The notes under the pieces: generated by a model | What the model was told of the DNA's origin: nothing | The model's database searches: none | Seen by the model: only the letters and a program-made list of their open reading frames with translations | Assembly (NCBI GenBank): GCA_037447655.1 | Contig: JBBHKE010001246.1 | Coordinates: 1 to 64,000 of the forward strand | DNA length: 64,000 nucleotides | Direction: 5' to 3' | Source of the DNA: Zygnema cylindricum | Taxonomy: Eukaryota; Streptophyta; Zygnematophyceae; Zygnematales; Zygnemataceae | Shown: positions 12,445 through 58,893 of the stretch, piece by piece | Position numbering within the stretch: the stretch's first letter is position 1 | How the letters are laid out: each line of letters opens with the position of its first letter | Program-made: the position numbers and the translations under genes

Positions 12445-12452
12445 CTCCCCTT
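12445..12452 (-). other. Copia-1 polypurine tract
   Basis: AAGGGGAG (minus strand) directly abuts the 3' LTR start; the same tract precedes the 3' LTR of Copia-2. It primes plus-strand DNA synthesis. Confidence 0.8.
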
Positions 12453-12457
12453 ATTTT

Positions 12458-15741: not shown

Positions 15742-15749
15742 CTACTCAT

Positions 15750-16732
15750 CTTAAAGGAGCTCATCTTCCTCGTCCTCGGATTCCGCCTGATGTTCCTGTG
15801 TCACAAGGGCCTTTTTCTTTCCTCTTGGGGTACCACCGGTTTGCCCCTCTTTTAACCGAAGCTCGGTTAGCTTAGTGCACTTTGCCATATAATGCCCAGG
15901 TTTCTTACAAAATTGACATAAACCTTTGGGAGCCCTTGGTCCGAACTCGTCAGTCTGATTTTTCTACTCCCTCCCCCACATAGTTTCTAACCGGTTTCCG
16001 AGAATCCTTGTTCTTCCAATCGGTCGCAGTTGCCAAGGCTTGGCCACTCTTTCCTCCCCTTCGGATCTTAATCGTATTCTCCCGAACGAGAATCATCCCT
16101 ACCACTGAGTTTTATATCCACCTTGAGTCCGGAAAGTCTTGCAAACGGTTGACTATGTTCTCAAACTCATTAGGTAACTTCATCAGTAAACAGTTAACCT
16201 TTTCTTTTTCACTAAAAACTTTTCCCGCACTCTCTAGCTCCATGAAGAGTGTAAGAAGCTCATTGCAAAAATACAACATCTTCCCCCTTTTGTATACATA
16301 CTCCTTAACTTTTTGATCAGCCAACTGTTGTTGCTGAATCGTACCACTTTTGTTCATCTCTATGAAAGCCATCCAAAGATCGGATGCCCTTTCTACCTGC
16401 AAATGAGGACATGCAAGTCCTTGAATGAGATGGCGTAGGATGAATTACTTTGCCGCCATATTGTTGAAGTCCCAGGTTTCAGTATCATTCTCGTTGTTCC
16501 TCGGAATAGGTGACATGAATGACGAACCAGTTGCTATTGGTGTGGTCGCCTCCTTCTCCTTTCCTTTGTCCACCACCTCTCCTTCTTTTGTTTCCTCTGT
16601 TAAAGGTGGATCCTCTTTCCTGGTGAATCTGCTTCCTTTAAATCCTGGAGGAATTCCAAGACTTGATGGACGCCCCAATCGTACACTCATTATCCCCTAA
16701 AACCTTTTTTCGCATAGAGCTCCTATCATCAT
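15750..16732 (-). pseudogene. Copia-1 gag
   Basis: Copia-type gag starting near 16732 (MMIGALCEKRF). The central block WDFNN.AAK.FILRHL ... VNCLLMKLPNEFENIV matches the UBN2-type gag polypeptide seen in plant Copia elements. One CCHC knuckle (CQFCKKPGHYMAKC) lies near 15918-15877. Several in-frame stops, including one in the first 15 codons. Confidence 0.88.
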
Positions 16733-16778
16733 ACTTTCCCAGTATATGAAGCCAGTTCCATTAAAGATTGGTACCCTA

Positions 16779-16796
16779 GAGGGTGGGCCCATAACC
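16779..16796 (-). other. Copia-1 primer-binding site (internal tRNA-iMet)
   Basis: Reads GGTTATGGGCCCACCCTC on the minus strand directly after the 5' LTR. From memory the plant initiator tRNA-Met has GGTGGGCCCATAACC across its anticodon arm; that is the exact complement of the first 15 nt. This implies half-tRNA priming, as in Drosophila copia and yeast Ty5. The site recurs at 50596, 53527 and 63515. Confidence 0.8.
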
Positions 16797-17808
16797 CGAA
16801 ACTCTGAGACCTCCATAAGACCTCAAAGTGGACAACTTCGAAGAAGCCTCTAGGATAACCCTGACCCCTTTGTGTTTCAGCAAAAAATAACTGCCACCTT
16901 GGCAGACAAAAACACTGACCAACTTCACCCTTGTGAAGACAAGACTCCCCAAAGTAGATAGCAAAAAGAATCTCTGAATTTGCTCCCGTGAGCAGTAAGT
17001 TATGGAGGGTCAAAGTTGACCTTTTGTACAGAAGCTCTCTGGGAGAGAGGGTCCTATCTTCTAATTTTCCTAAGTCCTATCTCTCTCACAAACTCTATCT
17101 ACTGATGTACAGAGCCAATCAGATTTCAGTTCCGTACACAAAAGTACAGCTGCCGGTGTACTTTCTGTACGGACAGTGTACGACATGGCCTAAATGTCGA
17201 CACGTGGTATGTCCGAATTTGCTCTTAAATCCTCAGAGATGCCGAGATCCAATGTCATTCCGCCACGTGTCATCCGATGTGGCGATGACCACAAACCGCC
17301 GAAATCCTTTTCCGCGATCTCGGCGTTAATTCCAGCCGTTCGATTAAATTCACATTTAATCGTAGCCGTAATAAATACATGCGCGGTATTCGTTTCACTA
17401 AAGAAATAAATCCGCGGTATTGGTTTCTTATCCGTACCGTAATCCGTACTTTTACATTATTGGATATATGTCTCACGTAAACAGTTACAGTTAAATGAAC
17501 TATCCTACGTAAAAATTGTTTAAATAATTATCAAACCTTATAGTATGTAACACTACTTCTAGACTTAACGGCTAAGGCTAACGACTACCGGCTATATGCC
17601 ATCCGGTAGTTACCAATATCAAATCTTGTGGCCGGGCGTAAACCTCTGGATAGCCTAAGTAGCCATGGCTCTAGCTCCCTCTCCAATTTCTCAGTGACTG
17701 CGACAAGTTTGAGAGTTGGAGAGAGAAGTTAGAGGTAGACTGCCTCGGCTTCTTTCTATATTTCTATTTAGACCTAGAAAATACTTTAAACGGACCATTA
17801 ATTCTACA
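16797..17808 (-). repeat. Copia-1 5' LTR
   Basis: 1012 bp. The inner terminal CA is mutated to CG. Slightly shorter than the 3' LTR owing to a gap near 17632 (a block present at 12230-12280 in the 3' LTR is missing). Confidence 0.92.
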
Positions 17809-22952: not shown

Positions 22953-22970
22953 AAGAGGGGTGGGAAAATC
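22953..22970 (+). other. Gypsy-B polypurine tract
   Basis: ACTAAGAGGGGTGGGAAA just after the PHD stop, conserved as ACTAAGAGGGGGGGAAA at 51788-51804 in B-II. It directly precedes segment B1, which starts TGGGGGGGTACAGGG. Confidence 0.7.
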
Positions 22971-24565
22971 TGGGGGGGTACAGGGTACTTTTCTTTTCCA
23001 CTTCATTCCTCCTTATTATCTATGCATATCCCTGAAGGGGGGTAATGAACAAAGATGGGCATTGTCACCGATCTGGGGAAGCATCAGCATTTGGGGTGGA
23101 TTGCAGGTTTCTCATGCACACCTCCTTAGACATCTTGCCTGAACCTCCCGGTTCCCAGGCACGCTCGACAGCTGTCAAGCTCGTGTGCGTCTTCGGCACA
23201 TTTGCACTCCCAGGAATTCCGGGGCCTCATTCCACTTTGTATGGACTCTAGCGTACGGAGAAGGAAGAGGAAAACTAGCCACATTTGATCTTTATATTTT
23301 CACTCTGGAGCCCTACGCAATTTAGTTCACCTGAAACGGAGGCCGAATGGCGGAGTTAGTCCGGTGCAAAGCGTCTGCTCCATTATATTGTGTGTTCTAT
23401 GTAGCTCTAGTAGAGGGATACATTAGAGAACGACACGTAACCTTTGGGATTATCCCGTAGATCCTTCTGTTAGCTGTCAGTAGGATGTTAGTTTAGGCCC
23501 AACAGCCGGGCAAAGCATTAATGACTTTGGGTCAAAGTTAGGCGGTTTCACGTCGAGTCAGAACTTTGTTTCCATTTTGTGTATCATAGGAGGACCCTCA
23601 GCCGCTAATCCAGCCGGGACCAGTCGTCTAACTTTTAGCCCTGAGTGTAGTACAGTCTGTTTTGTCTTATGTCCGTACGATAACAATTGCTGGCCGCTGA
23701 TTAGCTTGTCACATTGCTTTGACTTTGGAACTTGCAGTAGAACAAACTCTGGTTGTATAAGGCTCTTTGGGGCCGAAGGAGACAGGTGGCCTTTCAGTAC
23801 TGTCTCCTGAGAAAACCCCCAGAGAATTAAATCAATCTTTCTGTTGGAGAACGGTTGCATTGTGTCGTTGACTCTATTGCCATATTTGTTTTGGATTGTC
23901 TTTTGTGGAGACCGTAGCACGGGTGGGTAGTTGGCACTATCTCCTCTTTGGGCGGTTTGGACTTTCGCTGTTTGAAACTAAGAAGAGTCTTGTCGGATCC
24001 TTGCGGTGGAACCGCTAGGGGTGAGGGAGACTCATACCGGTCTTCAGGGCCATTGGGAGAGGTTTTCTTCTGCTGAGTTTGGTCACCGTTGCACTCCGGG
24101 GTATGTGAATTCGCTTCACCATTAATATTTATTTCTATCTTTAATTCCATTCTCTGGGGCAAGGTGATATTGTTTAATCTGAAAAGCCGATATTTGTTAT
24201 TTCTATATTTCTGCGTGGGAGTTATTTGCACACTCTTGTGGTCATCTTTGGGTTTGTCCGGAGTTTTTGCGGAAAGGATCGAACGACTCTCATTTCCTTC
24301 CTATTCTTTGGAAAGTAGCTGGGAGTGTGGCATTTAGTGGGCTTCCAGCGGAGTAGCACAAAATTTGGGGGGGTACAGGGTACTTTTCTTTTCCACTCCA
24401 TTCCTCCTTACTATCTATGCATATCCCTGAAGGGGGGTAATGAACAGAGATGGGCATTGTCACGGATCCGGGGAAGCATCAGCATTTGGGGTGGATTGCA
24501 GGTTTCTCATGCACACCTCCTTGGACATCTTACCTGAACCTCCCAGTTCCCAGGCACGCTCGACA
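22971..24565 (+). repeat. Gypsy-B right end: B1-GC-A2-B2
   Basis: B1 22971-23170 (200 bp, TGGGGGGGTACAGGG ... CTCGACA), GC 23171-23172, A2 23173-24365 (TGTCAAGCTCGTGTG ...), B2 24366-24565 (200 bp, nearly identical to B1). A2 matches 45595-46700 of B-II. The B1/A2 joint is the palindrome GACAGCTGTC, as in A-II. Taken as a conventional LTR (B+A), it would run 22971 to about 24357 with TG...CA ends. Confidence 0.8.
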
Positions 24566-32413: not shown

Positions 32414-34990
32414 TAGATAACCCTCGATTACGATTATGAGAGCACGGAACGGCCTAATGGAGGTGCGTCAAATGGAAGGCCAAACCACACAAGACAAGTC
32501 AACACACGAAGTCTCTATCAAGACCCGTTGGTCAGATCTAGCAAAAGGTCGAATTACGAAAACCTCAACCCTGCAAACAATGGGGCAAGGCCGAAGAGCC
32601 AGATCTATAAAAACAAACACAGAACTATCTAAGCACCTTTCGGTGCAGATCTACAGCGGCACAGACATAAAATTGTCTAAACAGTGCCACCAACGGCAAG
32701 ATCTATGAAAAGAAAATCCAATCCAGATAGTTACAGGGAATCTCAAGGCCACTTACCGCCTGATAGCATGCAAGGAAAGCAAAGAAAATGCAAATGCTCA
32801 ATAAGAATGGTTCGCGATGGAACCGCTCCACACCGATCCCCTACGCGAGTGTCCACACTAAATCGGAACGCTCCTGCACCCGCAAGGCATCGGCTACTTA
32901 CAGACACTTTTAGTACTCTGGTGAGTACTAAAAGTGAACCGAACTTGGTTGAAACAAGTCGGATTTTGCAGAGTCCTCAGGAAAGTGATCCGCCTCGGTT
33001 CCGAATAATCATTCCGCCTCGGTTCCGAATAATCGTACCCAGGACCACCACTAAACACCCAGGCAATTAGTATCCTGCTAGGGTATGCGTATCAGCGTTA
33101 TGCCACGCTATACCCAACTATAAAGCAATGATAATTATATGTTATAATTCGTGCAAATCTAATATATATGAATATATACTTTTACTTTGCTAGGTTTTAT
33201 GAATGATTAAATTTGGCAAAGGAGGAAGAAAGAGAATATCAAATCCACCACAAACCAAACATCAACTAGCCAGCTAAGGAAGTTGCACTAAAAGAAAGAA
33301 AGATAAGAAATATTAAGAAAAATTCTAAATACAACACAAAGTACGGTAAAATTGGGCAAAAAGGTTTCCCAAACCCTAATACCACGCTGCAAAAATCAAA
33401 AATCTGCGACCAAGGGATGGTAATATTCTGCCCTAGGGTTAAGAATTCCAAAAAATAAACCCGAAATCCGCCCAAACCCTAAATCTGCGGCCCAAACCCT
33501 AAATATGCGGCCAAACCCTGATTCCGCAGATTAACCCTAAAAATCTGACACAAAATCAGACCTTAATCGGCAGACTAGAAATAGAGTGGCAACAAGATAG
33601 AAAAAAGGGATTGCAAGAAAAAAAGAAAAATAACAAAACAAAATGTTTTTTATTTTTTTTATAAAATAAAATTTATAAATTTAATTATTTTTATATTATT
33701 TTTATTTCAAATAAAAACTGAAAACGAAATGTAAATTGGAAAGAAAATAGAAGAGACCAAGCTAAAAACCAAAACTGAAAATGAAAGGTGATATTTTTTT
33801 TTTCTTTATAAAATAAATTTGATATTTTTAACAATTTAATTCAAATAAAAGCTTTTGAAAAATTAAAGCTTTTGAAATGTTAGTCTTTTGGTAATGTTCT
33901 TTTGGACAATAATACTAAGCCACAAGGTAGCCACTAGGATATCGGGTCTTCCAGGTATTCTCTACAAGAGTTATCTAAAAGGAAAGCAACGAAGCAAAAT
34001 AATCACTTCCAACCAAAACCAAGAAAATCGGAATTAACCAAAAATGACACTTTCCCACGAAAAACGAAATACCACACACATAAATACACTCAAACAAATC
34101 GTCCAACTGTTTGGAGAACTGCGCATCTTGAGAGAAGATGCCACACCTCAAGCCTCCACTCCACCAATCGCCAAAAAAACAAATTTGGAGGGAAACCTTC
34201 CGGACTTGGCTGAAGCCGTGTGGATTAAAACGAGGTAGAAACAAAGGTAAATATTCTTAATTTATCTAGCCACTATAGCTAGCTAGCAATAATAAAGAGA
34301 AAGTATGAGCAATCAGTGAGAGAGAGAGCAAGATAATAGCTCCGCTGCCAAGAGAAAATTCTTGTCCAAAAGCTAAATTCTCTAAGTCTAAGAATTAGGC
34401 TAAGTAAGAGCTTCGCTAGGCCTAAGCAAAATTAGCCTACGTCTAATCTACTTTACATGGATGAAACTACTTAAGATGTTGGCCAATAGGCGGCCAACAT
34501 CGTCTGCCGTACGTTTGACAAAATCCACCGACCGAGGGTAAAAACCCTCCCTAACTACATGTATCCGCGAACCTACATGGGTTCGCGAATTAAATAAATA
34601 GATGTATCGAAACATCGCCGGGAAATCCCAATACGCCACCAAACGATACTTCGCTTCGATACTCCCAAAATCGCGTGCATACACACGTATCGAAGCATAC
34701 TGCACGAAATAATACAAAATTGCAATATCGCACGAAATACTGCAAAATTGCGATACCTGCAAACGAAACGAAACGTCTCGCACTAAATTAGTACATTTCA
34801 ATGAAAATTGCACGCGAATCGCACGCACGTCAAAAATAAATAAATCGAAAGAATTCCGCACGTGCGAACGAAAATTGTTACGGCATGCCGAAATATCGTG
34901 CGTGCGTGCACGATATCGTGCATGCGTGCAAAATATCGTGCGCGCATGCAAAATATTGTGCGCGCCCGCGACTGACACCATGCGGCATGA

Positions 34991-35696
34991 CACCAACGAT
35001 ATACTACGCTAACTTAAGTATTTGGTTATTGTTTCCTCCTTCTCTTTGTTTACATCTTGGGCATTCTGTGCTCACCTTGTGACATACTTCACCAAAGAGA
35101 GAAGTTAGTGGAGCGGATCCGTTCTTGGGAGCTCTGCAAAACTTCGGTTGTAGCGAACAACCGCATTTCACCCTTGGCAATCACCATAATGCTAAGAGTG
35201 TTATGTAAGTATCACCATGCCTTGCGGGTACAAGCGCGTGCTAAGGTAGTCGGTTGATCGTTTAGAGGGATCGTGTCTGAAGTGGATTAGTGTTAATCTA
35301 CTTGTATTGAGCATTGTATTTGTCCAGCTTTCCATGCTTGCTATCTGGCCTTGAGTGGCCTTGGCTGAGTTTGCTTTGCCCGGTGTGGAATTTCTTCCAT
35401 AGATCTTTCCGTTGGAGGCATTGGTTAGCTCCTTTGTGGATTGTGCCGCTTTAGATTTGCACTTGTGAGTGCTTAGATAGTAAGTTATTTGCCTTTATAG
35501 ATTTGGCCCATCGACCTTGTCCCCTTGTTTGCAGGGTAGAAGGTTTTGGTAATACGATTTCCTGATAGATCTGGCCATCGAGGCCCTGTTAGAGATTTAT
35601 TGGCTGATTAGACGAGTGAAGGGTGTGGCCTGGCATTTGAAGCACCCCGTATAGATCGATTTTGTTATCTTGTCATCATTTGGTTTTATCATTTTT
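34991..35696 (+). other. Gypsy-A unit A-V leader
   Basis: Diverged from the A-I leader but alignable: tgcgggtacaag/ccgggtacagg, ccttgagtggccttg, atagatctt.ccgt, gtttgcagggtaga. Left part missing; begins where A-IV starts. No gene. Confidence 0.65.
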
Positions 35697-37624
35697 ATGC
35701 CCACCGATTCGAATAATCTCGATTATCGTTCTGGAACCACCCGATCGTCGGCCACGTTTAGGCCCACAAAATCATGACCATTTGATTTACCTAGTCTTTT
35801 GGACCATCCTTTCCCGAATATCTCAGGTCAAATTTCCCATTGGTTAGGTCAAATTTCCGCTTCGGTTTGTTCTTCTCTCACCTCAGTATCTTCCTTATCA
35901 TCAGTCTCTTCCACATTTTTTGAGGAAGAATTTGACCACGATTCCTTTGACGCGTCGGATTCCAATTCAATATCTTTTTGGTTTCCACAAATTACAAATT
36001 CATTATTATCCCTAATCATTCCATTATTGGAAATGGCTTCCACATCCGAGGGAGGGGGTCGCCTTCATTTTTGTTTTTCAAGAATGAAAGATATGACTTT
36101 ATCGTATTTTCGAGTGCTATTCGATACCGAAATGCGTGATTTTGCATTTCAGTACCAAGATCGGTTTGACCTACGGGTCGCTTTCTCTCTTTTAGGCCTT
36201 TACCTTCGCTGTTCAGCCTTTACCCTTTATTCTCGCAAGCATGATTCCATACTTGCGATGACACAGTTTTCTTCGGCTTTCGCTAGGAGTCTTGCTATTA
36301 TAAGACAACCAAAAATTCCCTACCAACTGGCTATCCCGGAAGTCCTTGATCTCAACAGCGATGTTATTACAACAGCAGTTGCGGAAATACCGCAACAGTT
36401 TGCTATAGCCGCACGTGCTGTAATCCTAGTACGACCATGGATGACGATCCCTATACTGGATCCGCTCTTCTCATGTTTGAAATGTTGCAAGCGGAATACC
36501 GTATGCAAAACCCTGACCAAGTTTGTGAGTTAATGAACTTCCAACGGAAGTCAAGAGAGATCGCCCTTGCCATGAGTGCTCCTATGGAAGCTCTCCGTGA
36601 AGCATTTTCGGACTTAATGTTGGATGCTGAAGCTGTCCATAAATTTGTAGGATAGTTTCCGTGTTAGTCTAAGAAATTTATCCCGAGTCACCTGACTAAA
36701 ACCTACGGCTTGAAGTTCACTTTTGACCTAGCCGCCCAACATGCCGTAGAATACGAAATGCAAAATTGTTGGTGGGAAGCCCATGACCGTCCTAAAGCGG
36801 TCTCAAGAGAACCGATTGTTCCACCATGGAACAATCCTCGTCCTAACAACCGACCTCCTAAAATCTCGGCCATGGGAACCCCACCTGTTGCCCCCGGAAA
36901 CCGATTATGTTTTCGATCTGAGAAGACGGGGCATGATGCCCGAATGTGTCGAGACAAAACTGTTACCTGTACACATTGCAAGCAAACTGGACATTATGTC
37001 CAACGTTGTTATATAAAAAACCCGGATATTTCTTATCAGAACCAAATTAAAAGTGGTGGCATTCTCGCTCGATCCGCAAAATCGGTTCAACCGGTTAAAG
37101 AACTGGAGAAGGACACCACTCCACCTAAGGTATCCCGGAGAGAGAGAGAGCGTTTAGAAATGCAAGAGCAAATGGCGGCTATGATGAAAGAACAATTCGC
37201 AGCCTTCATGACTCAAATGAAGCCACAATTTACAGGCATGGCTCGCATTGTTGTACACATGCCCACGTTGGCAGGTCGAATCTTACGAGATTCCACCATC
37301 CAACAAAGAGAGGCTACGTTCGACAAAGGTTCGACCGATCATAGCCGTGACGGTAAAAATCCTAACACACGCATCCCTTTGTCATTCACTAAAGAACCTT
37401 CTCCTCCCTTGCCTGAAAAAGCTTCAGCCATCGCGGCTGAAGCTCTCAACATAGTGGATCGAACTATACACGAGGCACACAGCGTAAAAGAACGCTTGTG
37501 CATTCTATCCAATATGATTTCCGACTCACAAAAAATCTCCCCTATATCCTTTACTTCCGATAGCTCATCTGCATTTGCCGCGTTACAAACACTTCAGCTG
37601 CACATAAATCTTTCTGCTATTTAG
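35697..37624 (+). pseudogene. Gypsy-A unit A-V gag
   Basis: Start chosen at 35697 (MPTDSNNLDYRSGTTRS, matching A-III). Stop at 35775, frameshift near 36440, stops at 36653 and 37622. Capsid-like block FDTEMRDFAFQYQDRFDLRV. First knuckle damaged (CFRSEKTGHDARMC, second Cys is Ser), second intact (CTHCKQTGHYVQRC). C-terminal MAAMMKEQFAAFMTQMKPQF. Confidence 0.85.
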
Positions 37625-37672
37625 TCTATTTCTATATAGGAGCGAAATTCCCTCGATCCTCACATCAGTTTT

Positions 37673-38056
37673 TTGGATAACGGGAAATGTGTATTGTTGA
37701 TCAATGGTATAGCCCCTTCCGTGCCTCTCATAGATACAGGTGCAAAGCCGGTGATATTGGGCTCTAGCTTTGCACTCAAGCTTGGTCTAACTCCGGACAA
37801 GCTTAAGACCAATTCTACTCGCTTGTTAATATCAGCGGGTACTACCGAGCCAGTTCTAAGAATCACTAAGGAACCGCTCGTTTTGAGGTTCCAGAACGGA
37901 ACGACCACAAACTTTGTTGAGATCTCGGTTCACGCTCTGGTCACTAAATGTAGTGACTGTGAATGCCTAGTGGGACAGGACGTTATATTTCGTGTAGGGG
38001 GTGGAGTTAACATACATGATCAGACATTTTCTTATAGGCCCACTAACTTCCCATAA
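37673..38056 (+). pseudogene. Gypsy-A unit A-V retropepsin
   Basis: Same frame as gag. Active site VPLIDTGAKPVILG with flap-like region RITKEPLVLRFQNG and conserved end LVGQDVIFRVGGG. Catalytic Asp and the DTG triad are intact. Cleaves the polyprotein. Confidence 0.85.
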
Positions 38057-38370
38057 CGCAAAATTTGCATTCTGCTAATTTCCGCTAGGAAGCCCATGCC
38101 TGTTATGGCAAATTCGGCCACATCGATACCGACATTTTGAAGGAATTCGGTGGGGGCCGAAATATTTCATTCATTGTCCGTAGAAGAAATTTTGCCCGAT
38201 AGTTCTTACTTTCCAAAAAAATTCACTGACCAGGTTTTCTTATAGATACGAGGGAATTTGACCGAATCTATAACCAAACCTTGTCAATTCCACTTTCTCC
38301 GGTCTCTCCTACAATCCTAGTCCCTACAAACTCTTCTGGATTTCTTCCCATTAATTAGAATTCGGTCAAA
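38057..38370 (+). other. Protease-methyltransferase linker
   Basis: Coding-like but broken text, alignable in part with the post-protease block of A-III (ARKP.H.MA / ARKPMPVMA). No domain recognised. Confidence 0.4.
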
Positions 38371-39345
38371 TTGAAACCTCATCCAAATGGATTGGTGATT
38401 TTAGACCACTTCGTTGGAATAGGCACTTCCCTCCTTGCATGTTTGCGAAATGGATTGTTAATTCGATTTTATTTTTCGGTTGAGATTGATCCATTAGCAC
38501 GGAAAGCACAATTACATCATTGTAATCTGTTGCATTCCCAATACCCGCATTTGTTACCAAAATCTGCATACGATCAATATGTATACTGCCCTCCCACAAG
38601 ACATTCGGATTGTGGGCAACCATCACTTACTGGAGATTGGTCCAATCGATCTAGTTTTTGGCGAATGGGAGTGCCAGTGAATGTCTCGGGCCGGGAAAGG
38701 TCTCGAATAAGCCCATCCCTGCACCAAATTATTTTTTGAATTGGTTCGCAATTTATGTTTTCTACAAACTTTAGATCATCCTATAAGGTATATCTTGGAA
38801 AATCTCGCAGACTATAATGATCCAAGACCTACGGTTTTGGCTCATATCAACAAATTGAACAATTAATTGGTCCGCCTTTTTTTGTTGACGCGGCTCGCCA
38901 TGGTTCACTAGCACACCGGGTTAGCTCCAAATGGAAGAACCTGATCGATATTGGTAGACTCCGTGAGGCCAACTTGTTAGTTCGTCCTCCTCCTAAAGAC
39001 ATTCAGGCTGCCCTTCCTCCTTTTCATAAGGTGCAACATTGCATTCAAAAGGACTGTCCCCCTAATTCAGTTTCAATGTCTGGGTGAACCTCTCAAGGTG
39101 CTTCCTACCTTAGTTTCGTACCCACATTCACATGTATTCTCTAATGACGGTCTTGGCATGCTCCGAAACATTCATACCGGTGAGCTCGAGGAGCCTACCT
39201 CTACGGAATGAGAACACCTCATGCATTTCATTCCTGGCAATACAGCCACTCATGGTCTTACAGAACATTAAAGATCCACATTATTAGGTCGTGTCATGGA
39301 CCCTTAGTCTTTGTCTTTTGTTTTAGGTCTTGGGTTTGCAGCTGG
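38371..39345 (+). pseudogene. C5-cytosine DNA methyltransferase domain inside Gypsy-A pol
   Basis: About 325 residues between protease and RT, in three short frame segments. Motif I LDHFVGIGT (38401-38427), II VEIDP (38479-38493), IV GPIDLVFGEWECQ (38639-38677; catalytic Cys codon 38672-38674) followed by MSRAGKGLE, VI YILENL (38789-38806), VIII DAARHGSLAHR (38887-38919) with KWKNL, then TGELEEPTSTE, EHLM.F and LLGR (39173-39292), a motif IX/X-like end. Order is canonical, unlike the permuted DRM type. C5-MTases transfer methyl from SAM to cytosine. Pro before the catalytic Cys reads Glu. Frameshifts and several stops make this copy dead. Retrotransposon-borne DNMTs are published for charophytes and dinoflagellates. 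Confidence 0.85.
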
Positions 39346-39379
39346 TCGCCACTCTCAAGCACATCCGTCTCAACCAGCT

Positions 39380-39390
39380 GGGGGGGGGGG
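39380..39390 (+). other. Internal G11 tract
   Basis: CAGCTG followed by G's then AAT, at the methyltransferase-RT boundary. Flanks (AGCTG...AAT) match those of the 3' G tract of A-II (19871-19883, minus), so it may be an internal polypurine tract. It could also simply encode glycines. Confidence 0.35.
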
Positions 39391-39515
39391 AATGCATCAC
39401 TAAAAAAATCTTTCCGTCCCACTCTCCAAGGGACCACATTTTAATTTTTCCTCTTTCCTTTTCCAATTCCACGAGTCCTGAAGATTTGTATTGACGATTT
39501 CCTAACCCTAGCCAT

Positions 39516-41158
39516 ATGTCTTGGTGTGTTCCCGCATACATGGCTGTCCAGTCTACAAGTTCCAGGCATATTCCACCCACTCTTCATTGGAGTGTTGCTT
39601 TTCCAACAAGCAGTTGGAATCATTCGGTTAATTGCCTTAAACAGACACCTGTAGCTTACGAGTTAGGTCAAACGCTTATCGCAGATGATCAGTTGGCCTT
39701 TGCACAAGCCATAGAAGCTATGACAACCGAAAATCCTGATGCTCCTAAATGGAAATTCAGCACCAATCCAACAAAGGCGGAACAAGAGTTACTGAATGAC
39801 GTAGTTTTACGAAATGTCGATGCCTTTGCCTTTTGTATGAACGATTTGGGTCGTCACACCGCTTATAAGATGTCGATAGATCTCGAAGATGATTGCCCGA
39901 TATTTAAACCGAAACATCGTTTGTCAAAAACTGAATGGGAAATGGTAGACAAACGATGTGCTGAACTAGAGGAAGCTGGCCTAATCTATGGGTCAGACTC
40001 CACATTTACAGCTCCTTCTGTCATGCCTTGGAAAAACGATTACGAGGGTAATTTTACTGAACATCGAATGTGTGGTGATTATCGTGAACTAAATGCTAGA
40101 ACAGTTCAAGATCGTCATCCCATGCCTCTTGCAGAAGAAATATTTGATCACATAGGCGGAGCAAAGTATTTCAGTATCCTTGACCTCTGTCAAGGATTCA
40201 ATCAAATTGAGATAGAGGAAAAAGATCGGTATAAAACTGCCTTTTAGGGTAGCGACGGCTGATGGGAATGGGCCGTAATGCCATTCGGACTGAAAAATGC
40301 TCCGACATTATTTCAAAAAGTCATGGACTCAATTCTTGGAGGTTGTAAGTTTTCTAGGTGTTAGATCAATGACCTCATCATCGCCTTGGCTACTATAGAA
40401 AAGCAAGCTGCTCTCATCGAATGGGTATTGACTGAATTAAAAAAGGTCAGATTAAAATGTCATCCAGCGAAATGCACCTTTGGAGCCGAGGGAGTGCTTT
40501 ACTTTTGCCATTTGTTCTCGGCTGAGGGGATCACTCCTCTTGAAGCAAAGGTAGAGGCAATCAGTAAATTGCCTGCACCCACGAACCTCACAAGTCTGCG
40601 AGCCTTTCTCGGCCTTGCTAATTATTATCGTAGGTTTGTATGTAATTTTAGCACCATCGCATCTCCGTTCAACAACATTCTCAAGAAAAAAGTGGCGTTT
40701 ATATGGGGTCCCGATCAGATTTCCGCATTTCAAAAATTAAAAACCGCCTTATCGAGTGCTCCTATTTTTCGTCCTCCCAATCACAAACTCCCCTTTTGTC
40801 TCCAAAAAGATTTTGGAAAACTTGGAATCGCTGCCATCTTGACACAAAGAGAGTTGAGCGTAGAGGAATACGTAGTTGCTTATGCGAGCAGAAGTAATAA
40901 CCGGGCTGAATCAAATTATAGTAGCTACGAAGGAGAGTGTCTAGCTGCGGTTTGGAGAGTCGTTCACTTCGGCCATTATTTGTACGGAAAACCTTTCACA
41001 CTCCTAACTGACCATCAGCCCTTACATTGGCTGATGACGGACGATAAGCTTTTCGGGAAGCTAGCAAGATGGGCTTTAATCTTACAAGAATATGACGTTG
41101 AAATAATTCACCGACTCGGTCTGCTTAGTCTAAACGCAGACAAAATTCCCAAAATCCT
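39516..41158 (+). pseudogene. Gypsy-A unit A-V reverse transcriptase and RNase H
   Basis: One frame with two stops near 40245-40260 and one at 40362. RT: KPKHRLSKTEWEMVDK, HRMCGDYRELNART, HPMPLAEEIFDHIGGAKYFS, LDLCQGFNQIEI, MPFGLKNAP. The YxDD box is ruined (stop-IND near 40362). Thumb/connection: KCTFGAEGVLYF, LRAFLGLANYYRRFV. RNase H: LQKDFGKLGIAAIL (first Asp kept), YSSYEGECLAAVW, LLTDHQPLHWLM. Typical Ty3/gypsy organisation. Confidence 0.93.
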
Positions 41159-42130
41159 TTGCCCCGAACGACGGATAACGGAGTTCGACACGGTTTCGAT
41201 GACGACGATGTTCCCGTCATGTCAGCAGGTTCTTATCTTACTTACTGTCTGGCCTCTATTCCCTATCCTCGTCCCGCCATAGATCCTTGGCGTGATGGGC
41301 CTTTCGTACATTTCCTATCAACCCAAACCTTTAGGATTGGTACTACCTTTGACGAAGAAAACAGAGTGAAAAAGAGAGCCAAAAATAACCTTTGGCTCGG
41401 AGGATCTTTAGTTCCGTTGTTGGCAGACGGAAGCCATAGGCACGTCCCTCGTCGTACAGAGCGACTTTCCCTTATTGAGCAAATTTACACCGAGCTTGGT
41501 CATTACGGTACCAAGCGGACGTTAAGCCTAGTTCAGGCACAGTATTGGTGGTCAGGAATGCAAGCTGATGTCACTGCTATTCTACACAAGTGTGCCACCT
41601 GTGACCGTCTCTGAACTTCTTTCTCTAACCGGCTGACTACGCTCCAACCTCTACTCATTAATGGTTTATAATATCGGTTGTCGGTCGATTTGGCGGGACC
41701 TTTTCCAATTTCACGCAGAGGGAAACAATTTATCATGATTACGATCAAAAATTTCAGTAAGTGGGTAGAAGTCGTAGCCCTGCCTCACAAGACAGCTAAG
41801 TTAATTATCGCAGCTTTTAAGGAACATGTCATTATGAGATACGGTGCCCCAGCCGAGGTCCTTACGGATCAAGGTACACAATTTCGGGGAGAATTTAAAA
41901 AGATGCTTGATGAGGCTCTTATTGATCATCGTTGTACTAGTCGCGATCACCCCTAGGCCAATGGTCTGGCTGAACGGGCAATCCAGACATTTAAGCGTGC
42001 CTTGCGTAAGCATTGCTTAGAGAAACACATTTCGATTTGGGACGAGTGCGTCGGCTACATTACCATGGGATATCGCATGTTAGTTCAGGCTAGTCTGGCT
42101 AATTTCAGCCCATATTATATTTTTTGAGCG
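41159..42130 (+). pseudogene. Gypsy-A unit A-V integrase
   Basis: HHCC zinc module: ELGHYGTKRT ... LHKCATCDR. Core: SVDLAGPFPISRRGKQF (first Asp), LTDQGTQFRGEF (second Asp), ANGLAERAIQTFKR (Glu; NGLAER at about 41960). All three catalytic residues are visible. Ends MGYRMLVQASLANFSPYY. Breaks at 41614 and 41956. Inserts cDNA into the genome. Confidence 0.9.
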
Positions 42131-42550
42131 TGTTCTTTCGATTGTAATATTGACTACAAGCTTTCGCTTGATAATGCGGCTGATTTTTTGAAGAACCTAC
42201 GTCGTACTTTACTTTACTTATGAAATGCCTATATCTTCAATAACATGATTACTTAACATCAGGAACCTTATGTTTTAACCTCGCAGCGGTATACCTAACA
42301 GAGCTTCTCCGGTGGGAGACTATATTTTATCTTAAGCAATCTTACACTGAACCTAATGTTTGTGCACATCTGGATGCCGGTGAATCGGCAGATATTGGGA
42401 TTATAAGGCCGGAACACGAACTTTTGAGAACATCTGAAATCTTACTCCATGTTGCTACAGTTGTCGCGGATATGGATCCCTATGCGGATGCACCGCTTCT
42501 GGAGGCTACGACGTGACCTGCCCAATGTCGTGCCACCAGTTGGAAACTAC
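42131..42550 (+). pseudogene. Remnant of integrase tail and lost PHD region in A-V
   Basis: Broken frames (SLDNAADFLKNLRRTL, then VVADMDPYADAPLLEATT near 42470). The last block matches DLLQDMDPMRMPITEATACTFC of A-II, so the PHD finger began here, but its Cys/His residues are gone. Confidence 0.6.
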
Positions 42551-42559
42551 CCGCCTCAA

Positions 42560-44305
42560 AATTGCTCCTCCCTCATAACCAAATCTCACTTTCTTCACTC
42601 CCCTTGCCGAGATATTTACCATTTTTCTCTTTCAGCTTATTCATTACCTTTTTTTTCTTTGTGGTTTGTGTTTGTTCGACACAACCGTGTTGGGCTGCGT
42701 ACATGTTTATATGGGTGGGCAGGTAATTATATGGGTGTTATTTGGACGTGGGTGGTACCGGACGGGACAATTTTTAAAGGTGCATTGACCGTATGTATTC
42801 ATTTTTGGCCGTAATATGCGCCTGCAACAAGTTGACCGTACAACTCAGAATTCCCGGGTTTTTTGCCGACGGCGACTTGTACAGTATTACTTATATTTTC
42901 TGGGATTTTCGACGATAGTGAATCGGGTCGATTTACGTCGACCGTACTTATTTATTTCTCTAGGATTTTCTGCCGACAACGCATGTTCAAATTCACGTCG
43001 GTACAAACAAAATTATTTTACTATATATATTTTCCGCGATTCTCGCCGACAGTAACTTTGGTCATTTCACGTCGATCGTAGGAGTTACATTTTCCCGAAT
43101 TCGCGCGACAACAAAGTGGACCGTATCTTCGGTCCTACCGTACAAGCTTTCGTTCCCTTGAATCCCGGCCGACAACAAATTTTAATCATTTCGCGTGGAG
43201 TAGCATCTCGGTTGTCGACAAAAAGTATGCGATTTTCATAGTATCACATCTGGACCGTCAACGCAAGTGACAGACAAATCGGCTGTCAGTTTTGACGAAA
43301 CGATGTGATTAGACCATTTTAAGTCGTGAACCATTTGGAGATTCACGCATTCACATGTAGATAGGAAGGGTTTTAATCCGTAGGTTATAGATTCTGTAAC
43401 GTAGGGCATAAGATTTCGGCCTCCTATTGGCTTAATCCAAACTAGACGCAAATACTTACATTGCACGCTGTACTCTGATTGGCCTGTTTTCCCTAGGCGT
43501 AGTTTTTGATACTTAGTTCATCTTAGATTATTTCGTGGTCACAATTTTCAAGTGCACGAATTATTTATTGTATTTATTTTCAGTATTGAGAATTTTCTGC
43601 AACCTTTTTTTTATTTGTAAAATTGTCCGGACAGCTTAGAGGCGATTTTTTGCCTTTGCGTGAAGCGTCTAGTTTTCCATTGCATTATCAATATCTTGTT
43701 AAGCCTTACATATTAATCTATACGGCTTCGGCCAAGACCTACACAGTTTTCGTTCACTTTTCTTGTCTTTTTGAGTGGATTTTTACCGCGGTCTCACAAC
43801 ACAAACTTCTTTTCCCGGCTGTGGCTGAATTTTAATTAGTGTGGAAGTTGCATGTTGGGATTATCGTTTTGTTGTTTTTATTTCTTGTGATTGTGTATTT
43901 ATTTCTATTTGGCTTATGTGCATCTTTTGAGTTTGGTTATCTCAAACCTCATAAGTGTCCGACATATCGTCATTTTCAGTTTTTGTTTCTCTTTCTCGGT
44001 TAATTATGCTTTGATTTGTTTTATTTACGTATAAATTCAGATTATCCTTGATAAGATAACTCTTGCAAGGAATATAAAAAGACCGTGGGGCCTAGTGGTC
44101 ATCCATCGGCTAAGTAAATAAACTGACCTAACGATAACCAGCTAAGTCGTTGACCTTTTTTTTTCTTCCACCTTGCCTGTCGTTTTATTTATTCATTTTT
44201 CTCTTTTATGTCTTATTTCATTCACAATATATTTTCATGATTTTTAAGTGGAGCACAGCTGATGATATCGCATTCATCTTCACGTTATTTGACACATGAA
44301 CGACA
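42560..44305 (+). repeat. Gypsy-A unit A-V right end: B1-A2-B2
   Basis: B1 about 42560-42681 (diverged, ends TTCGACA), A2 42688-about 44118 (TGTTGGGCTGCG..., CGTAC sub-repeats 42850-43230, landmark acggcttcggccaag 43724-43738), B2 about 44119-44305 (aataaactgacctaac ... aacgaca). Matches A-II 17949-19870 in inverted orientation. No GC dinucleotide here; six bases separate B1 and A2. Confidence 0.65.
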
Positions 44306-52469: not shown

Positions 52470-53526
52470 TGTAGAAATTAATAGTCTTTTAAAGTATTTT
52501 CTAGGTTTGAATAGAAATAAGAAAGAAGCCAAGGTAGTCTACCTCTAACTTCTCTCTCCAACTCTCAAACTTGTCGCAGTCACTAAGAAATTGGAGAGGG
52601 AGCTAAAGCCATGGCTACCTAGGATATCAAGAGGTTTACGGGAAAATATATTTTAGTTAGGGGTTTAATTTTCTAAAAGATATGTGCTCGCCACAGGATT
52701 TGATCTTGGTACCTACCGGCCGCCAGACAGCCGGTAGCCGGTAGCCTTAGCCGTTAAGTCTAGAAGTAGTGTTACGTAGTATATGGTTTGATAATTATTT
52801 AAACATTTATACGTAGAAAAGTTCATTTAACTGTAACTAGTTACGGGAGACATATATCCAGTAAATGTAAAAGTACGGATTCCAATACGGATAAGAAACC
52901 AATACCGCGCATTTATTTCTTTAGTGAAACGAATACCGCGCATGTATTTATTACAGCTACGATTAAATGTGATTTTAATCGGACGGCCGGAATTAACGTC
53001 GAGATTGCGGAAGAGGATTTCGGCGGTTTGTGGTCATCGCCACATCGGACTACACGTGGCGGAATGACATTAGATCGCGGCATCTCCGAGGATTAAGGGA
53101 GCGAATCAAAAACATACCACGTGTCCACATTTAGGCCATGTCGTACAATGGCCGTACATAAAGTACACCGTCAGCTATACTTTTGTGTACGAAACTGAAG
53201 TCTGATTGGCTCCGTACATCAGTAGATAGAGTCTGTGAGAGAGATAGGACTTAGAAAAATTAGAAGATAGGACCCTCACTCCCAGAGAGCTTCTGTACAA
53301 AAGGTCAACTTTGACCCTCCATAACTTACTGCTCAGGGGAGCAAATTCAGAGATTCTTTTTGCTATCGACTCATGGGAGTCTTGTCTTCACAAGGGTGAA
53401 GGTGGTCAGAGTTTTTGTCTGCCATGGTGGCAGTTATTTTTGCTTAAACACAAAAGGGTCAGGATTATCCTAGAGGCTTCTTCGAAGCTGTCCACTCTAA
53501 GGACTTATGGAGGTCTCAAAGTTTCA
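52470..53526 (+). repeat. Copia-2 5' LTR
   Basis: 1057 bp, TGTAGAAATTAATAG ... AAAGTTTCA. Inverted W-box pair at 53302-53317. Confidence 0.93.
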
Positions 53527-53544
53527 CGTTATGGGCCCACCCTC
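53527..53544 (+). other. Copia-2 primer-binding site
   Basis: CGTTATGGGCCCACCCTC, same internal tRNA-iMet type as Copia-1, with the first base changed. Confidence 0.78.
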
Positions 53545-53590
53545 AAGGGTACGAATCTTTAATGCAATTGGTTTCATATACTGGGAAAGT

Positions 53591-54571
53591 ATGATGATAG
53601 GAGCTCTATGCGAAAAAAGGTTTTGGGGGATAGTGAGTGGACGGTTTGGGCGTCCATCAAGTCTTGGAATTCCTCCAGGGTTTGGAGGAAGCAGATTCAC
53701 CAGAAAAGAGGATCCACCTTCAACGGAGAAAACAAAAGAATGAGAGATGGTGGATAAACGAAAGGAGAAGAATGCAACCACACCAATAACAACTGGTTTG
53801 GCATTCATGTCACCTATTCCGAGGAACGAGGAGAATGATAGTGAAACGTGGGACTTCAACAATACGGCGGCAAAGCACTTCATCCTACGCCATCTCACTC
53901 AAGAACTTGCATGTCCTCATTTGCTGGTAGAAAGGGCATCTGATCTTTGGATGGCTCTCATAGAGATGTATCAAAGTGGTAGGATTCACCAACAACAGTT
54001 AGCTGATCAGAAAGTTAAGGAGTATGTATACAAAGGGGGGAAGATGTTGGATTTTTGCAATGAGCTTGTTACACTTTTCATGGAGCTAGAGAGTGCGGGA
54101 AAAGTTTTTAGTGAAAAAGAAAAGGTTAATTGTTTACTGATGAAGTTACCCGATGAGTTCCATAACATAGTCAACCATGTGCAGGACTTGCGGGACACAA
54201 GATGGATGTGGAACTTAGTGATAGGGATGATTCTCGTTCGGGAGAATACGATTCAGATTTGAAGGGGAGGAAAGAGTGGCCAAGCCTTGGCAATTGCCAC
54301 CGATTGGAGGAACAAGGATTCTCGGAAACCGGTCGGAAACTATGGGGGGAGGGAGCAGAAAAATTTGACCGTCGAGTTCGGACCAAGGACTCCCAAAGGT
54401 TTATGTCATTTTTGTAAGAAACCTGGGCACTATATGGCAGAGTGCACTAAGCTAACAGAGCTTCGGTTAAAGGAGGGGCAGACCAGTGGTACCCCGAGAG
54501 GAAAGAAAAAGGCCCTTGTGACACAGGTACATAAGGCGAAATCTGAGGATGAGGACGATGAGCTCCTTTAA
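53591..54571 (+). pseudogene. Copia-2 gag
   Basis: MMIGALCEKRFWGIVSGRFG start at 53591; stop at 53741-53743; shift near 54260. Core FILRHLTQELACPHL ... DFCNELVTLFMELESAG ... VNCLLMKLPDEF (UBN2-type gag). Nucleocapsid knuckle CHFCKKPGHYMAEC near 54404-54447, then an acidic end. Confidence 0.9.
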
Positions 54572-54580
54572 GTTGACGCG

Positions 54581-55644
54581 TTGGAGGCGAAAAACGAGGT
54601 CGAAATACCACGACGGCAGAAATGTGCTTACGGTGGATTGAAAGGTGAACCACGGTGGATTGTAGATTCAAGTGCCTCCATGCACATGTGTAAGGATAGG
54701 CACTTGTTCACTAAGATAAGAAATATTCCCACCGTAGAGATAGAGTACGGGGAAGGGAGGATAGTCACCACTACTCTTGTAGGATCGGTAGATTTGAAAG
54801 TGTTAGTAGAAGGAAAGACATCCATAGTAACATTCTCCGATGTATTGTTTATTCCGGAGCTGAACAAAAACCTCATCTCTACATCCGTATTAGATGATAA
54901 GGATTTTTTCACTAGCACTAGGGAAGGAGTCTTTACTGCTAGTTTTGAGGAGGATGTCTATTTCATTGCTGAGAAAGGTAGCCATGGGATGTTTAGGCTG
55001 GTTTTAAGTAATGAAAAGAAGAAACTTTATTATGCTGGTGTTCATGATATTTTGATGTGGCATAAGAGGCTTCGGCATGTGAATCTAGACAAGTTAAGAG
55101 AGATGAGAAAGATGGGAGTGGTGGAAGGGATTAAGTTTAGTGAGAATAATAATATAAGTGATTGTAGTGGATGTGCTCAAGGTAAAACACACAGATTACC
55201 CTTTCCTAAAACAGCCACCTATAAGGGAGAAAAAATTCTAGATCTAGTACACACAGATATTTGGGGACCGGCTAGAGTGCCCTCACCGGGGGGGAAGAGA
55301 TTTATGATGACTATCACTGATGATTGGTCTCGGTATTCCCGAGTGTATTTTTTGAAAAACAAGTCCGAAGCTCAGGATTGTTTTAGACAATATAAAGCAT
55401 GGAGCAAAAACTTCATGACACTCAAATCAAGAGAAAAAGAGGTGACAATGGTGGAGAGTATACTTCTAACCAGTTTGAGGATTTTCTGAGGGAAGATGGG
55501 GTCCAACACCAAAAGACAGTTCTTGACAACCGGGAACAGAATGGGGTAGCTGAAAGGTTAAATAGAACACTAAGTGATAGTGCTAGAAGTATGTTGTCAG
55601 ATAAGAAGATAGGAAAAAGGTTTTGGGCAGAAGCAATAAACTGA
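54581..55644 (+). pseudogene. Copia-2 protease and integrase core
   Basis: Protease WIVDSSASMHMC (DSSA for DSGA; Asp kept). Pre-integrase WHKRLRHVNL ... CSGCAQGKTH. Integrase VHTDIWGPARV, then a frame change at about 55420-55440, DNGGEYTSNQF, NGVAERLNRT: D, D and E are all present. Stop at 55642. Confidence 0.92.
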
Positions 55645-56934
55645 GCTAATTACCTCAAAAATAGAGTTCTTACTTCAGCTATAAAAGATCAAACACCTTA
55701 TGAGAGATGGACAGGCCGGAAACTAGACTTATCTCACTTAAAGGTTTTCGGCAGTCAAGTATTCAGTCTAGATACAGATCGGTCTAATTGGAAGCTAAAT
55801 CCTAAAGGAAAACCGGGATACTTATTAGGATATGATGAGGATGTTAAAAGATATAGAGTTTATGATCTAAAAAGGGAAGATATAATCTTAGTAAAGCATC
55901 TAGTACTTATGGATGAAGGAAAGTCTGTGGATCCCTTCAAATATACAAAGTCAGTAAAAATCAGATTTGAGTCAGAAAATTCCGATGACTTTGAGCTCCC
56001 TAACTATCCAGGTTTTAAAGAAGATGACATTGTTGCAGATACAAATAAGACCGAAAAGGACTCGGCTGTGGAAACTCCAGTGACAACTCTACCCGAAGCG
56101 GAAGACGTGGTGGAAATTGATTCGGAATCAATGGATAGGGGAGAAGCCGAGTTTGTTCGAAAGAATCCAAGAGAACCTTCTATTCCGGCCTGAGATTTTG
56201 AGTGGGGAAGGAGAGGTGACAAAAGACTACACAAAAAACAGGTTAACAACAAGGTAACTAAACTATCTCATCAAGATGAACCTCAAACTTATAGAGAGGC
56301 AATGACTTGGCCAGAAAGAAACCGGTGGAAGACAGCCATCAATGAGGAAATGGCCTCAATTATGGCAGCCGATACTTGGGAGCTGGTGGATTGTCCACCT
56401 AACCGAAAACCAATCGGTTGTAAGTGGGTTTTCAAATTCAAACTGAACCCAGATAACACAATCGAGCGTTACAAGGCCCGATTAGTGGCAAAGGGATTTA
56501 CACAAAAAAAGGGAATTAACTACGAGGAAACCTTTGCCCCGGTGGTCAGATTTCCCTCCGTCCGCATACTTCTCAGCCTGGCACCAGCGGAAGACATGGA
56601 AGTGCACCAGATGGACATCAAGACAGCCTTTTTGCATGGAGAATTGGAAGAGGAGATCTTCATGCCACAACCTGAAGGGTTTGTGGAGGAAGGAGAGGAG
56701 AGTAAGGTATGCCGGCTGATTAAATCTCTTTATGGTTTCAAACAAGCGCCTCGACAGTGGAATAAGAAGCTTGATGAGTTTCTTACCGGTCTTAGATATC
56801 TCCGGATCAGCTCAGATCACTCAATCTATGTTTTCAAAGATGAGGAAGGTTTTATATTTATTGCAATTTATGTTGATGATTTGGTTGTCTTAAGTAAATC
56901 AATGGAAAAAAAAAAAATTGAAAACCGATCTTAA
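55645..56934 (+). pseudogene. Copia-2 integrase C-terminal region and RT
   Basis: Same frame as the integrase core after one stop; another stop at 56191. Variable linker rich in Asp/Glu (EDVVEIDSESMDRGE). RT: GCKWVFKFKLN, KARLVAKGFTQ, QMDIKTAFLHGE, AIYVDDLVVLSK (catalytic YVDD intact). A frameshift follows in an A10 run near 56910. Confidence 0.93.
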
Positions 56935-57021
56935 GGGGAGATTTGAAATAAATGATATGGGGGAAGCAAAATATATTTTCGGAATTCAATTAGGGAGAGA
57001 CCGAAAAAAAAATTTATAAGA

Positions 57022-57825
57022 TTGACTCAAAAGGAAGCAATAGGGAACATGCTTGAAAAATTTCAAATGGATAAAGCTAATAGTTGTACAACTCCAATGG
57101 AATTGAAGAAGGGAAGTGAGGGGAGTGAGGAAGAAGGAGTCATAGACTTAGATGAGGAATTATCTCCTGAAGAACAGAAGTTCATGGAGACTATTCCTTA
57201 CAGGCAAGTTGTGGGAAGTCTAATCTATTTTATGAATTGTACACGGTCGGATTTAGTTGCAGCTATAGGAGTGCTGAGTAGAAGTCTAAATGCTCCCACT
57301 AAGAGGGATTGGGAGGCAACTAAGAGAGTCCTTAGATATTTGATAGGAACTAGGGATCTATGGTTGCATTTGGGTGGGGAGAATACTGACATCACTACTT
57401 GGAGTGATGCCAGTTATGGTGATGCTCCGATGAGGAGATGCACTTCTGGATATGTATTATATGTGGGTGATGGGGCTTGCTGGTGGAGTAGCAAACAGCA
57501 AAAAGTTATTGCTCAGTCCACCATGGAGGCTGAGTATATGGCCTCTTGCTCTGCTGTAAAAGAATTGATGTGGGTCAAGTCTTTGCTTGGTGAGCTTGGT
57601 CACCTTAAGAGTGGTGTGCAGAAATTTTTTTGTGATAATCAGGCAGCAATCGCTATTTCTGCCAATCTTAAACATCATTTTAAAGCTAAACACATGGACA
57701 TTAGACTCAGTTTTTTTAGAGAGAAAGTAGAAAACAAAATAATCAGCTTAGAGTACAGACCAGATAGTGAGATGGTAGCAGATATGATGACCAAAAAGTG
57801 TGGTCTGAAATTAAAGATTGATTAG
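57022..57825 (+). pseudogene. Copia-2 RT end and RNase H
   Basis: LTQKEAIGNMLEKFQMDKANS, IPYRQVVGSLIYFMNC, TTWSDASYGD (RNase H Asp), STMEAEYMASC (Glu), CDNQAAIAIS (Asp), KHMDIRLSF. The end MVADMMTK.KCGLKLKID lacks the PVPSPKLIFCRE stretch seen in Copia-1, a 39-bp deletion. Confidence 0.92.
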
Positions 57826-57838
57826 AAAATAAGGGGAG

Positions 57839-58893
57839 TGTAGAAATTAATGGTCTTTTAAAGTATTTTCTATGTCTTAATAGAAATAAGAAAGAAGCCG
57901 AGGCAGTGTACCTCTAACTTCTCTCTCCAACTCTCAAACTTGTCGCAGTCATTGAGAAATTGGCGAGGGAGCTAGGGCCATGGCTACCTAGGCTATCCAG
58001 AGGTTTACGGGAAAATATATTTTAGTTAGGGGTTTAATTTTCTAAAAGATATTTGCCGGCCACATGATTTGATCGTGGTACCTACCGGCCGGCAGACAGC
58101 CGGTAGCTAGTAGCCTTAGCCGTTAAGTCTAGAAGTAGTGTTACGTAGTATATGGTTTGATAATTATTTAAACATTTATACGTAGAAAAGTTCATTTAAT
58201 TGTAACTGATTACGGGAGACATATATCCAGTAAATGTAAAAGTACGGATTCCAGTACGGATAAAAAACCAATACCGTGCATTTATTTCTTTAGTGAAACG
58301 AATATCGCGCATATATTTATTATGGCAACGATTAAATGTGAATTTAATCGGACGGCATGAATTAACGCCGAGATCGCAGAAGAGGATTTCGGCAGTTTGT
58401 GGTCATGGCCACATCACATGACACGTGGCGAATGACATTGAATCGCGGCATCTCCAAGGATTAAGAGAGCGAATCCGGACATACCATGTGTCGACATTTA
58501 GGCCATGTCGTACAATGGCCGTACATAAAGTACACTGGCAGCTGTACATTTGTGTACGAAACTGAAATCTGATTGGCTTCGTACATCAATAGATAGAGTC
58601 TGTGAGAGAGATAGGACTTAGAAAAATTAGAAGATAGGACCCTCTCTCCCAGAAAGCTTCTGTACAAAAGGTCAACTTTGACCCTCCATAACTTACTGCT
58701 CAGGGGAGCAAAATCAGAGATTCTTTTTGCTATCGAGTCAAGAGAGTCTTGTCTTCATAGGGGTGAAGTTGGTCAGAGTTTTTGTCTGCCAGGGTGGTAG
58801 TTATTTTTGCTGAAACACAAAGGGGTGAGAGTTATCCTAGAGGCTTCTTGGAAGCTGTCCACTCTGAGGACTTATGGAGGTCTCAGAGTTTCA
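57839..58893 (+). repeat. Copia-2 3' LTR
   Basis: 1055 bp, preceded by PPT AAGGGGAG (57831-57838). Inverted W-box at 58669-58684. Confidence 0.93.

Follow-up and report, generated by a model that had tools for sequence, protein, structure and literature searches.

Methyltransferases encoded by retrotransposons were described some time ago, and the occurrence of some DNMT3 within retrotransposons of streptophytes and dinoflagellates was restated in 2025 (PMC12344493). In Klebsormidium nitens, according to the main text of the original description, KnitGypsy-Dnmt3 carries an intronless DNMT3 within the pol of a Gypsy element, with a Ka/Ks below 0.2; when assayed in yeast, this DNMT displayed no activity, a result that the authors call inconclusive, and two SymbioDIRS DNMTs methylated CG sites of both the genome and a plasmid (PMC5890265). 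The dinoflagellate elements in that account, SymbioDIRS-Dnmt3, in which the DNMT shares an ORF with the reverse transcriptase (RT), and SymbioLINE-Dnmt, are DNMT-bearing retrotransposons like the family analyzed here, but are of the DIRS or LINE type rather than LTR/Gypsy (PMC5890265). A Gypsy element with a DNMT3 is a published class (PMC5890265), in line with the remark in the sequence-only reading of this locus that retrotransposon DNMTs have been reported in charophytes and dinoflagellates, and the family described below, denoted family A, belongs to that class. As in the description of KnitGypsy-Dnmt3, an intronless DNMT3-related domain is part of the Gypsy pol polyprotein and is under purifying selection. 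The words protease and Marchantia are absent from the main text of PMC5890265.

The window, that is, the whole stretch of DNA analyzed here, comprises the first 64,000 nt of its contig in the 352.8-Mb assembly of the Zygnema cylindricum genome (2689 contigs). It contains the remnant of an element that, judging from the order of its pol domains, is a Ty3/Gypsy LTR retrotransposon: the succession protease-RT-RNase H-integrase was found both in the window and in all 20 family A loci that were fetched. The features of this remnant are listed in Table 1; its 5' LTR was not found in the window. Overall, we consider it very likely that the remnant derives from a Gypsy element whose gag-pol included a DNMT3-like enzyme between the protease and the RT, methylation of the cDNA being the proposed job of this enzyme.

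Table 1. Features of the DNMT-bearing element remnant in the window
Feature	Position	Strand	Basis
Element remnant, extent approximate	34993..44116	+	Alignment to L012, L013 and L015 (34993-42519 or 34993-42123) and LTR part
Part of gag (318-aa ORF), including CCHC text	36668..37624	+	Weak zf-CCHC match (E 0.12 to 1)
Aspartic protease	37640..38056	+	Asp_protease_2, E 2.8e-5
C5-cytosine methyltransferase domain, DNMT3-like, containing frame shifts and stops	38377..39340	+	PF00145, PDB and own-profile matches
Motif I, LDHFVGIGT	38401..38427	+	Sequence; aligns with motif I of relatives
Motif IV, GEWECQ (Glu replacing the usual Pro)	38660..38677	+	Sequence
Motif VI, YILENL	38789..38806	+	Sequence
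Motif VIII, DAARHGSLAHR	38887..38919	+	Sequence
Motif IX/X-like end, EHLMHF (39212-39229) ... LLGR (39281-39292)	39212..39292	+	Window letters; profile positions to 326 reached
Reverse transcriptase, first part	39495..40247	+	RVT_1, E 7.3e-6
End of RT and RNase H	40365..41282	+	RT_RNaseH, E 3.4e-31
Integrase, zinc-binding part	41129..41614	+	Integrase_H2C2, E 7.1e-14
Integrase core	41672..41956	+	rve, E 8e-10
Probable 3' LTR, limits approximate	42942..44116	+	Similarity to portions of the L012 and L013 end repeats

All six frames of the window were searched with a profile that we built from 42 retrotransposon DNMT sequences, leaving out the family A copies and DNMT3A. Four colinear pieces matched, namely, profile positions 3-71 (window 38377-38583), 69-167 (38576-38869), 159-234 (38842-39066) and 231-326 (39053-39340), which jointly span positions 3-326, so that the catalytic domain is whole in extent. 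The full-sequence E was 6.7e-45 in one frame and 7.8e-28 and 4.8e-27, for overlapping segments, in the other, and none of 20 windows randomized by simple base shuffles matched the profile at E of 10 or less. These results bear out the sequence-only reading, which had proposed a complete C5-methyltransferase catalytic domain with motifs in canonical order, and all motifs that it quoted (LDHFVGIGT, GEWECQ, YILENL, DAARHGSLAHR, EHLMHF and LLGR) were located, at 38401-39292. The Pfam search that it had suggested was answered in part: PF00145 matched one frame of three (E 0.0044) with a score of 16.9 bits, under the cut-off of 22, and four shorter pieces of the window had no PF00145 match. A noncoding sequence resembling methyltransferase motifs by chance would fit such a single-frame match under the curated cut-off, but the profile match, with no shuffled window reproducing it, led us to reject this explanation, and together with the colinear copies elsewhere in the genome makes its probability negligible.

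The PDB sequences listed for the PF00145-matching frame at E up to 10 were all DNMT3A, DNMT3B or DNMT3C (29 of 29, best E 0.014), and the second frame searched against PDB sequences had no match. A protein homologue search with the window frame as the query found none at E 0.001 (656 candidates). With the protease upstream and the RT, RNase H and integrase downstream, as originally proposed, sequence comparison makes it almost certain that the domain is a DNMT located between the protease and the RT. Separately, the second methyltransferase piece showed a weak tblastn match at 45820-45671 (E 8e-4).

The window copy of the element is broken. Because the profile pieces alternate between two frames, there are at least three frame changes, in addition to stops, in agreement with the decay noted earlier. 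Two of the four methyltransferase pieces are in frame with the ORFs for gag and protease (starting at 36668 and 37640), which is consistent with the suggestion that the domain was probably part of the polyprotein.

At least 123 candidates in the genome exceed the PF00145 cut-off (123 of the 123 scored, out of 782), many of them in long open frames. Family A comprises 20 fetched loci, L009-L028, picked by a methylase-profile match that DNMT-less siblings would escape; all 20 share one arrangement, protease-DNMT-RT-RNase H-integrase, on a single strand. Through window positions 38001-39500, six genome loci align at 84.7-91.6% DNA identity and others at about 65-69%. Accidental insertion into a single copy was accordingly rejected, the architecture being common to colinear genome copies. 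A search with a gag-protease-DNMT query (P0002) gave 61 rows, 59 of 3373 candidates being scored; the protease is covered in 59 rows, 55 of which extend beyond motif IV, in a score-ranked set biased to DNMT-bearing copies. The intact family copies that were to be sought genome-wide are exemplified by L010, a single frame of 2395 aa with end repeats of 434 nt that are 100% identical. Direct repeat pairs are present in 7 of the 20 stretches (L010, L012, L013, L018, L023, L024 and L025), and no repeat pair was seen in the other 13, the stretches ending at 9.5-9.9 kb; compared by description only, this differs from KnitGypsy, the legend for which gives DIRS-like repeats (PMC5890265).

The match to PF00145 is far stronger in open frames, with E of 6.5e-14 to 3.9e-13 in L001, L002, L003, L005, L006 and L008 and 2.7e-7 in L004; L004 and L020 denote one locus, as do L005 and L009, and L007, with no DNMT match to either family query, was excluded from the counts. 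All 29 PDB matches of the L010 DNMT at E up to 0.001 are DNMT3, as are 29 of the 40 matches of P0003, for which DNMT3A was best at 5.2e-14 vs 6.9e-5 for HhaI. The methyltransferase domain thus appears to be nearest to DNMT3, a class assignment drawn from PDB sequence matches. A protein homologue search with the family A domain as the query yielded none at E 0.001 (2312 candidates).

The WECQ variant of the usual PCQ, pointed out in the first reading, is present in the window copy, and motif IV is ECQ in all 20 family A loci: WECQ in 18, SECQ in L009, and a stop instead of the W in L020. Across the 21 family A copies including that of the window, Glu is encoded by GAA in 9 cases and by GAG in 12, and since both codons are in use, it is the residue, not the codon, that is kept. 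Judging from these copies, WECQ is a fixed trait of family A and not a chance change of the window copy. WECQ was also found in both Closterium proteins discussed below, and ECQ in six proteins of another group (sources ena or lgn). At motif IV, 12 of 47 aligned rows have E and 35 have P. On a tree computed after removal of the motif IV and motif VI columns, four changes between Pro and Glu are needed, and well-supported branches force four. ENV ends in V in 34 of the 35 P rows vs 4 of the 12 E rows, the rows being compared irrespective of kinship. For P0032, a relative with ECQ, the AlphaFold model has a pLDDT of 74.1 and a pTM of 0.77. Conceivably, the repeated replacement of Pro by Glu at motif IV of retrotransposon DNMTs, often with a changed last ENV residue, adapts the site to the RNA:DNA hybrid or cDNA in the particle rather than to chromatin DNA. 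We regard this idea as rather doubtful; if true, the glutamate form would represent a functionally distinct, novel version of the active site of C5-methyltransferases.

The same substitution might signify an ECQ enzyme that has little or no catalytic activity and is retained for another use, such as binding nucleic acids or assisting the RT or integrase, by analogy with the catalytically dead DNMT paralogues DNMT3L and DRM3, which help active ones. The absence, from all 20 loci, of the Pro adjoining the catalytic Cys points in this direction, as do selection on the DNMT that is weaker than that on the RT (see below) and the PYQ of P0015, from which the motif IV Cys is absent; however, this Cys is kept in all 21 family A rows including the window, the motif VI Glu is kept wherever it was read, and open copies retain each of motifs I, IV, VI and VIII, so we consider a dead or weak enzyme unlikely. 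With the catalytic Cys and the Glu of ENV both retained, the ECQ enzyme is probably still functional, although its activity or target may have changed, and on this sequence evidence the intact copies can be predicted, with reasonable confidence, to encode an active methyltransferase.

A second group of 17 loci (L001, L002, L003, L006, L008 and L029-L040), denoted family B, has WPCQ throughout (17 of 17) and a DNMT about 36-45% identical to that of family A over the aligned parts. The genome of Z. cylindricum hence harbors at least two many-copy DNMT-Gypsy families, and the side-by-side occurrence of both natural forms, PCQ and ECQ, would permit the role of the proline beside the catalytic cysteine to be tested directly. 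In L006, a single in-frame stop separates the protease ORF from the DNMT-RT ORF. The junction could be aligned in 16 of the 17 loci, some of which may be near-duplicates, and consists of TAG in 15, TAA in one (L034, poorly aligned) and a sense codon in none; CAATTC follows the TAG in 13 of the 15 TAG loci. In L010, L011 and L019, which are open family A copies, there is no stop at the protease/DNMT junction. From its sequence, the family B junction looks like a site of programmed stop-codon readthrough, which would determine how much DNMT-RT is produced per gag-protease. It resembles TAG-CAR-YYA, the readthrough context of tobacco mosaic virus, differing from it in the last base.

A search with the family B query P0001 found 41 proteins, including four Marchantia polymorpha and two Closterium proteins; Klebsormidium is not among the organisms named for these matches. 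In the Marchantia proteins P0007 (Mp_4g09160), P0012, P0017 and P0023, the protease is followed by the DNMT within one protein, as in the element described here, and P0007 additionally contains gag-like CCHC text upstream, matching the gag-protease-DNMT order. These proteins are 40-45% identical to the P0001 domain and are annotated as hypothetical or CCHC-type. They differ from family A in having PCQ instead of ECQ, in coming from a land plant, and in the absence of the RT within the proteins seen. The proteins P0041 and P0045 of Closterium sp. NIES-53/54 contain DNMT-RT and gag, protease and DNMT, respectively, and share WECQ with family A; they form a branch separate from it, and a single clade is not rejected (AU p 0.155). 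The DNMT-carrying elements thus reach beyond one charophyte genus, since Closterium and a land plant, Marchantia, also have relatives of them.

A different placement within pol was detected in eight proteins (P0019, P0024, P0025, P0034, P0035, P0037, P0038 and P0043), where the DNMT lies upstream of the integrase; RNase H precedes the DNMT in those that extend far enough (P0024, P0035 and P0038), and several of the eight contain a PHD finger. Together with four unassigned rows, these eight proteins form one clade (support 99/93), and the deep branches among the protease-DNMT-RT groups lack resolution in the tree. The DNMT has either moved within pol or been captured twice. In the literature that we found, which covers subscription journals only to a small extent, there is no report of gag-protease-DNMT in Marchantia, of the Closterium members, of the second placement in pol, of ECQ as a fixed trait, or of a family with an in-frame TAG between the protease and the DNMT.

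Selection was assessed by the Nei-Gojobori method in open copies, with dS limited to 0.1-2. For family A, dN/dS was 0.157-0.367 in the DNMT (8 of 45 pairs usable, 35 having saturated or zero dS), 0.058-0.082 in the RT (5 of 55 pairs) and 0.214-0.328 in the protease (6 of 66 pairs); for the family B DNMT, it was 0.111-0.275 (11 of 28 pairs). The DNMT domain is under purifying selection that is weaker than that on the RT, as measured in few pairs. Many copies are broken, with no single open DNMT frame in 10 of the 20 family A and 9 of the 17 family B loci, as would suit a passenger domain captured once and copied along unused; dN/dS values well below 1 and the retention of the domain across several families and lineages make such a passenger very improbable.

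We propose that the DNMT would be made as part of gag-pol, released from the polyprotein through protease cleavage, and packaged into the particle; there, it would methylate cytosines of the new cDNA before integration. Such methylation could shield the cDNA or hand the new copy, already marked, to host silencing. The assignment of cDNA methylation as the job of the enzyme is tentative, and we rate it somewhat below an even chance. These families would allow one to test why a parasite carries the type of enzyme that is used to silence it.

The element's own DNA is a possible methylation target, and the C-to-T pattern does not single out DNMT-bearing elements. Among seven copies of the subfamily, C-to-T changes confined to a single copy affected 98 of 455 CG, 90 of 364 CHG and 186 of 1401 CHH sites, and transversions at the identical sites numbered 62, 36 and 98, respectively. 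Given that transversions at CG are likewise elevated, the excess at this site type is not specific to C-to-T, and only CHG stands out. The window copy alone accounts for 29 of 455 CG, 40 of 364 CHG and 56 of 1401 CHH changes. Five Copia-type LTRs, from elements without a DNMT, have C-to-T changes at 18 of 73 CG, 15 of 64 CHG and 21 of 216 CHH sites, and since these LTRs are affected as well, the plant-type methylation scar is independent of DNMT carriage. With C-to-T changes in this Copia control and CG transversions raised, the C-to-T context was rejected as a sign of self-methylation. CpG depletion was rejected in the same capacity: the observed/expected CpG ratio is 0.90 in family A, where hardly any depletion is seen, and lower in family B (0.66) and in two Copia coding stretches (0.48), compared with 0.88 for the window element, 0.83 for the whole window and 1.07 for two LHC loci.

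Alternatively, the DNMT might act in trans on host DNA, rival elements or RNA, and not on its own cDNA. The methylation of genomic and plasmid CG by the SymbioDIRS domains in yeast (main text of PMC5890265) would accord with such a role, as would the CHG C-to-T excess common to Gypsy and Copia repeats. However, a DNMT1-RFD domain is present in the genome, and this host gene could cause the scars, and the position between the protease and the RT would favor packaging together with the RT; action in trans therefore seems improbable to us, and we retain cDNA methylation as the preferred, if tentative, role.

In the host genome, 88 matches to PF00504 (LHCII genes) were detected. For one LHCII gene, the best PDB sequences are the two-stretch chain 9vfj_2, followed by 8htu and 7xqp, which we take to be moss complexes, ahead of 1vcr and 6kac, presumably from pea and Chlamydomonas, respectively. 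The assembly contains no match to rbcL. The published genome of Zygnema cf. cylindricum SAG 698-1a_XF comprises 359.8 Mb in 3587 scaffolds, with 29.8% Copia, 5.9% Gypsy and 35 ELIP homologues, and methylation does not occur in the main text of that report (PMC11096116).

Several other repeats are present in the window. The gag part of the element is homologous to a minus-strand gag at 26259-25396, within a gag-protease relative at 26904-24876 that is 65% identical at the DNA level. This relative was considered as a DNMT-less sibling and found uninformative, its protein similarity stopping about 80 bases short of the point at which a DNMT would be expected to start; the 206-nt repeats near it, at 22965-23170 and 24360-24565, suggest an insertion. 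The 3' end and part of the LTR of an element of the same subfamily as the window element, about 94-96% identical to L012 and L015, lie on the minus strand at 20576-18200. Two Copia elements, at 11393-17808 and 52470-58893, have LTR-like repeats of about 1.05 kb and long open frames, and are 91% identical to each other. Short tandem arrays of a 20-nt unit with telomere-like TTTAGGG or CCCTAAA text are located at 6030-6225 and 33457-33519.
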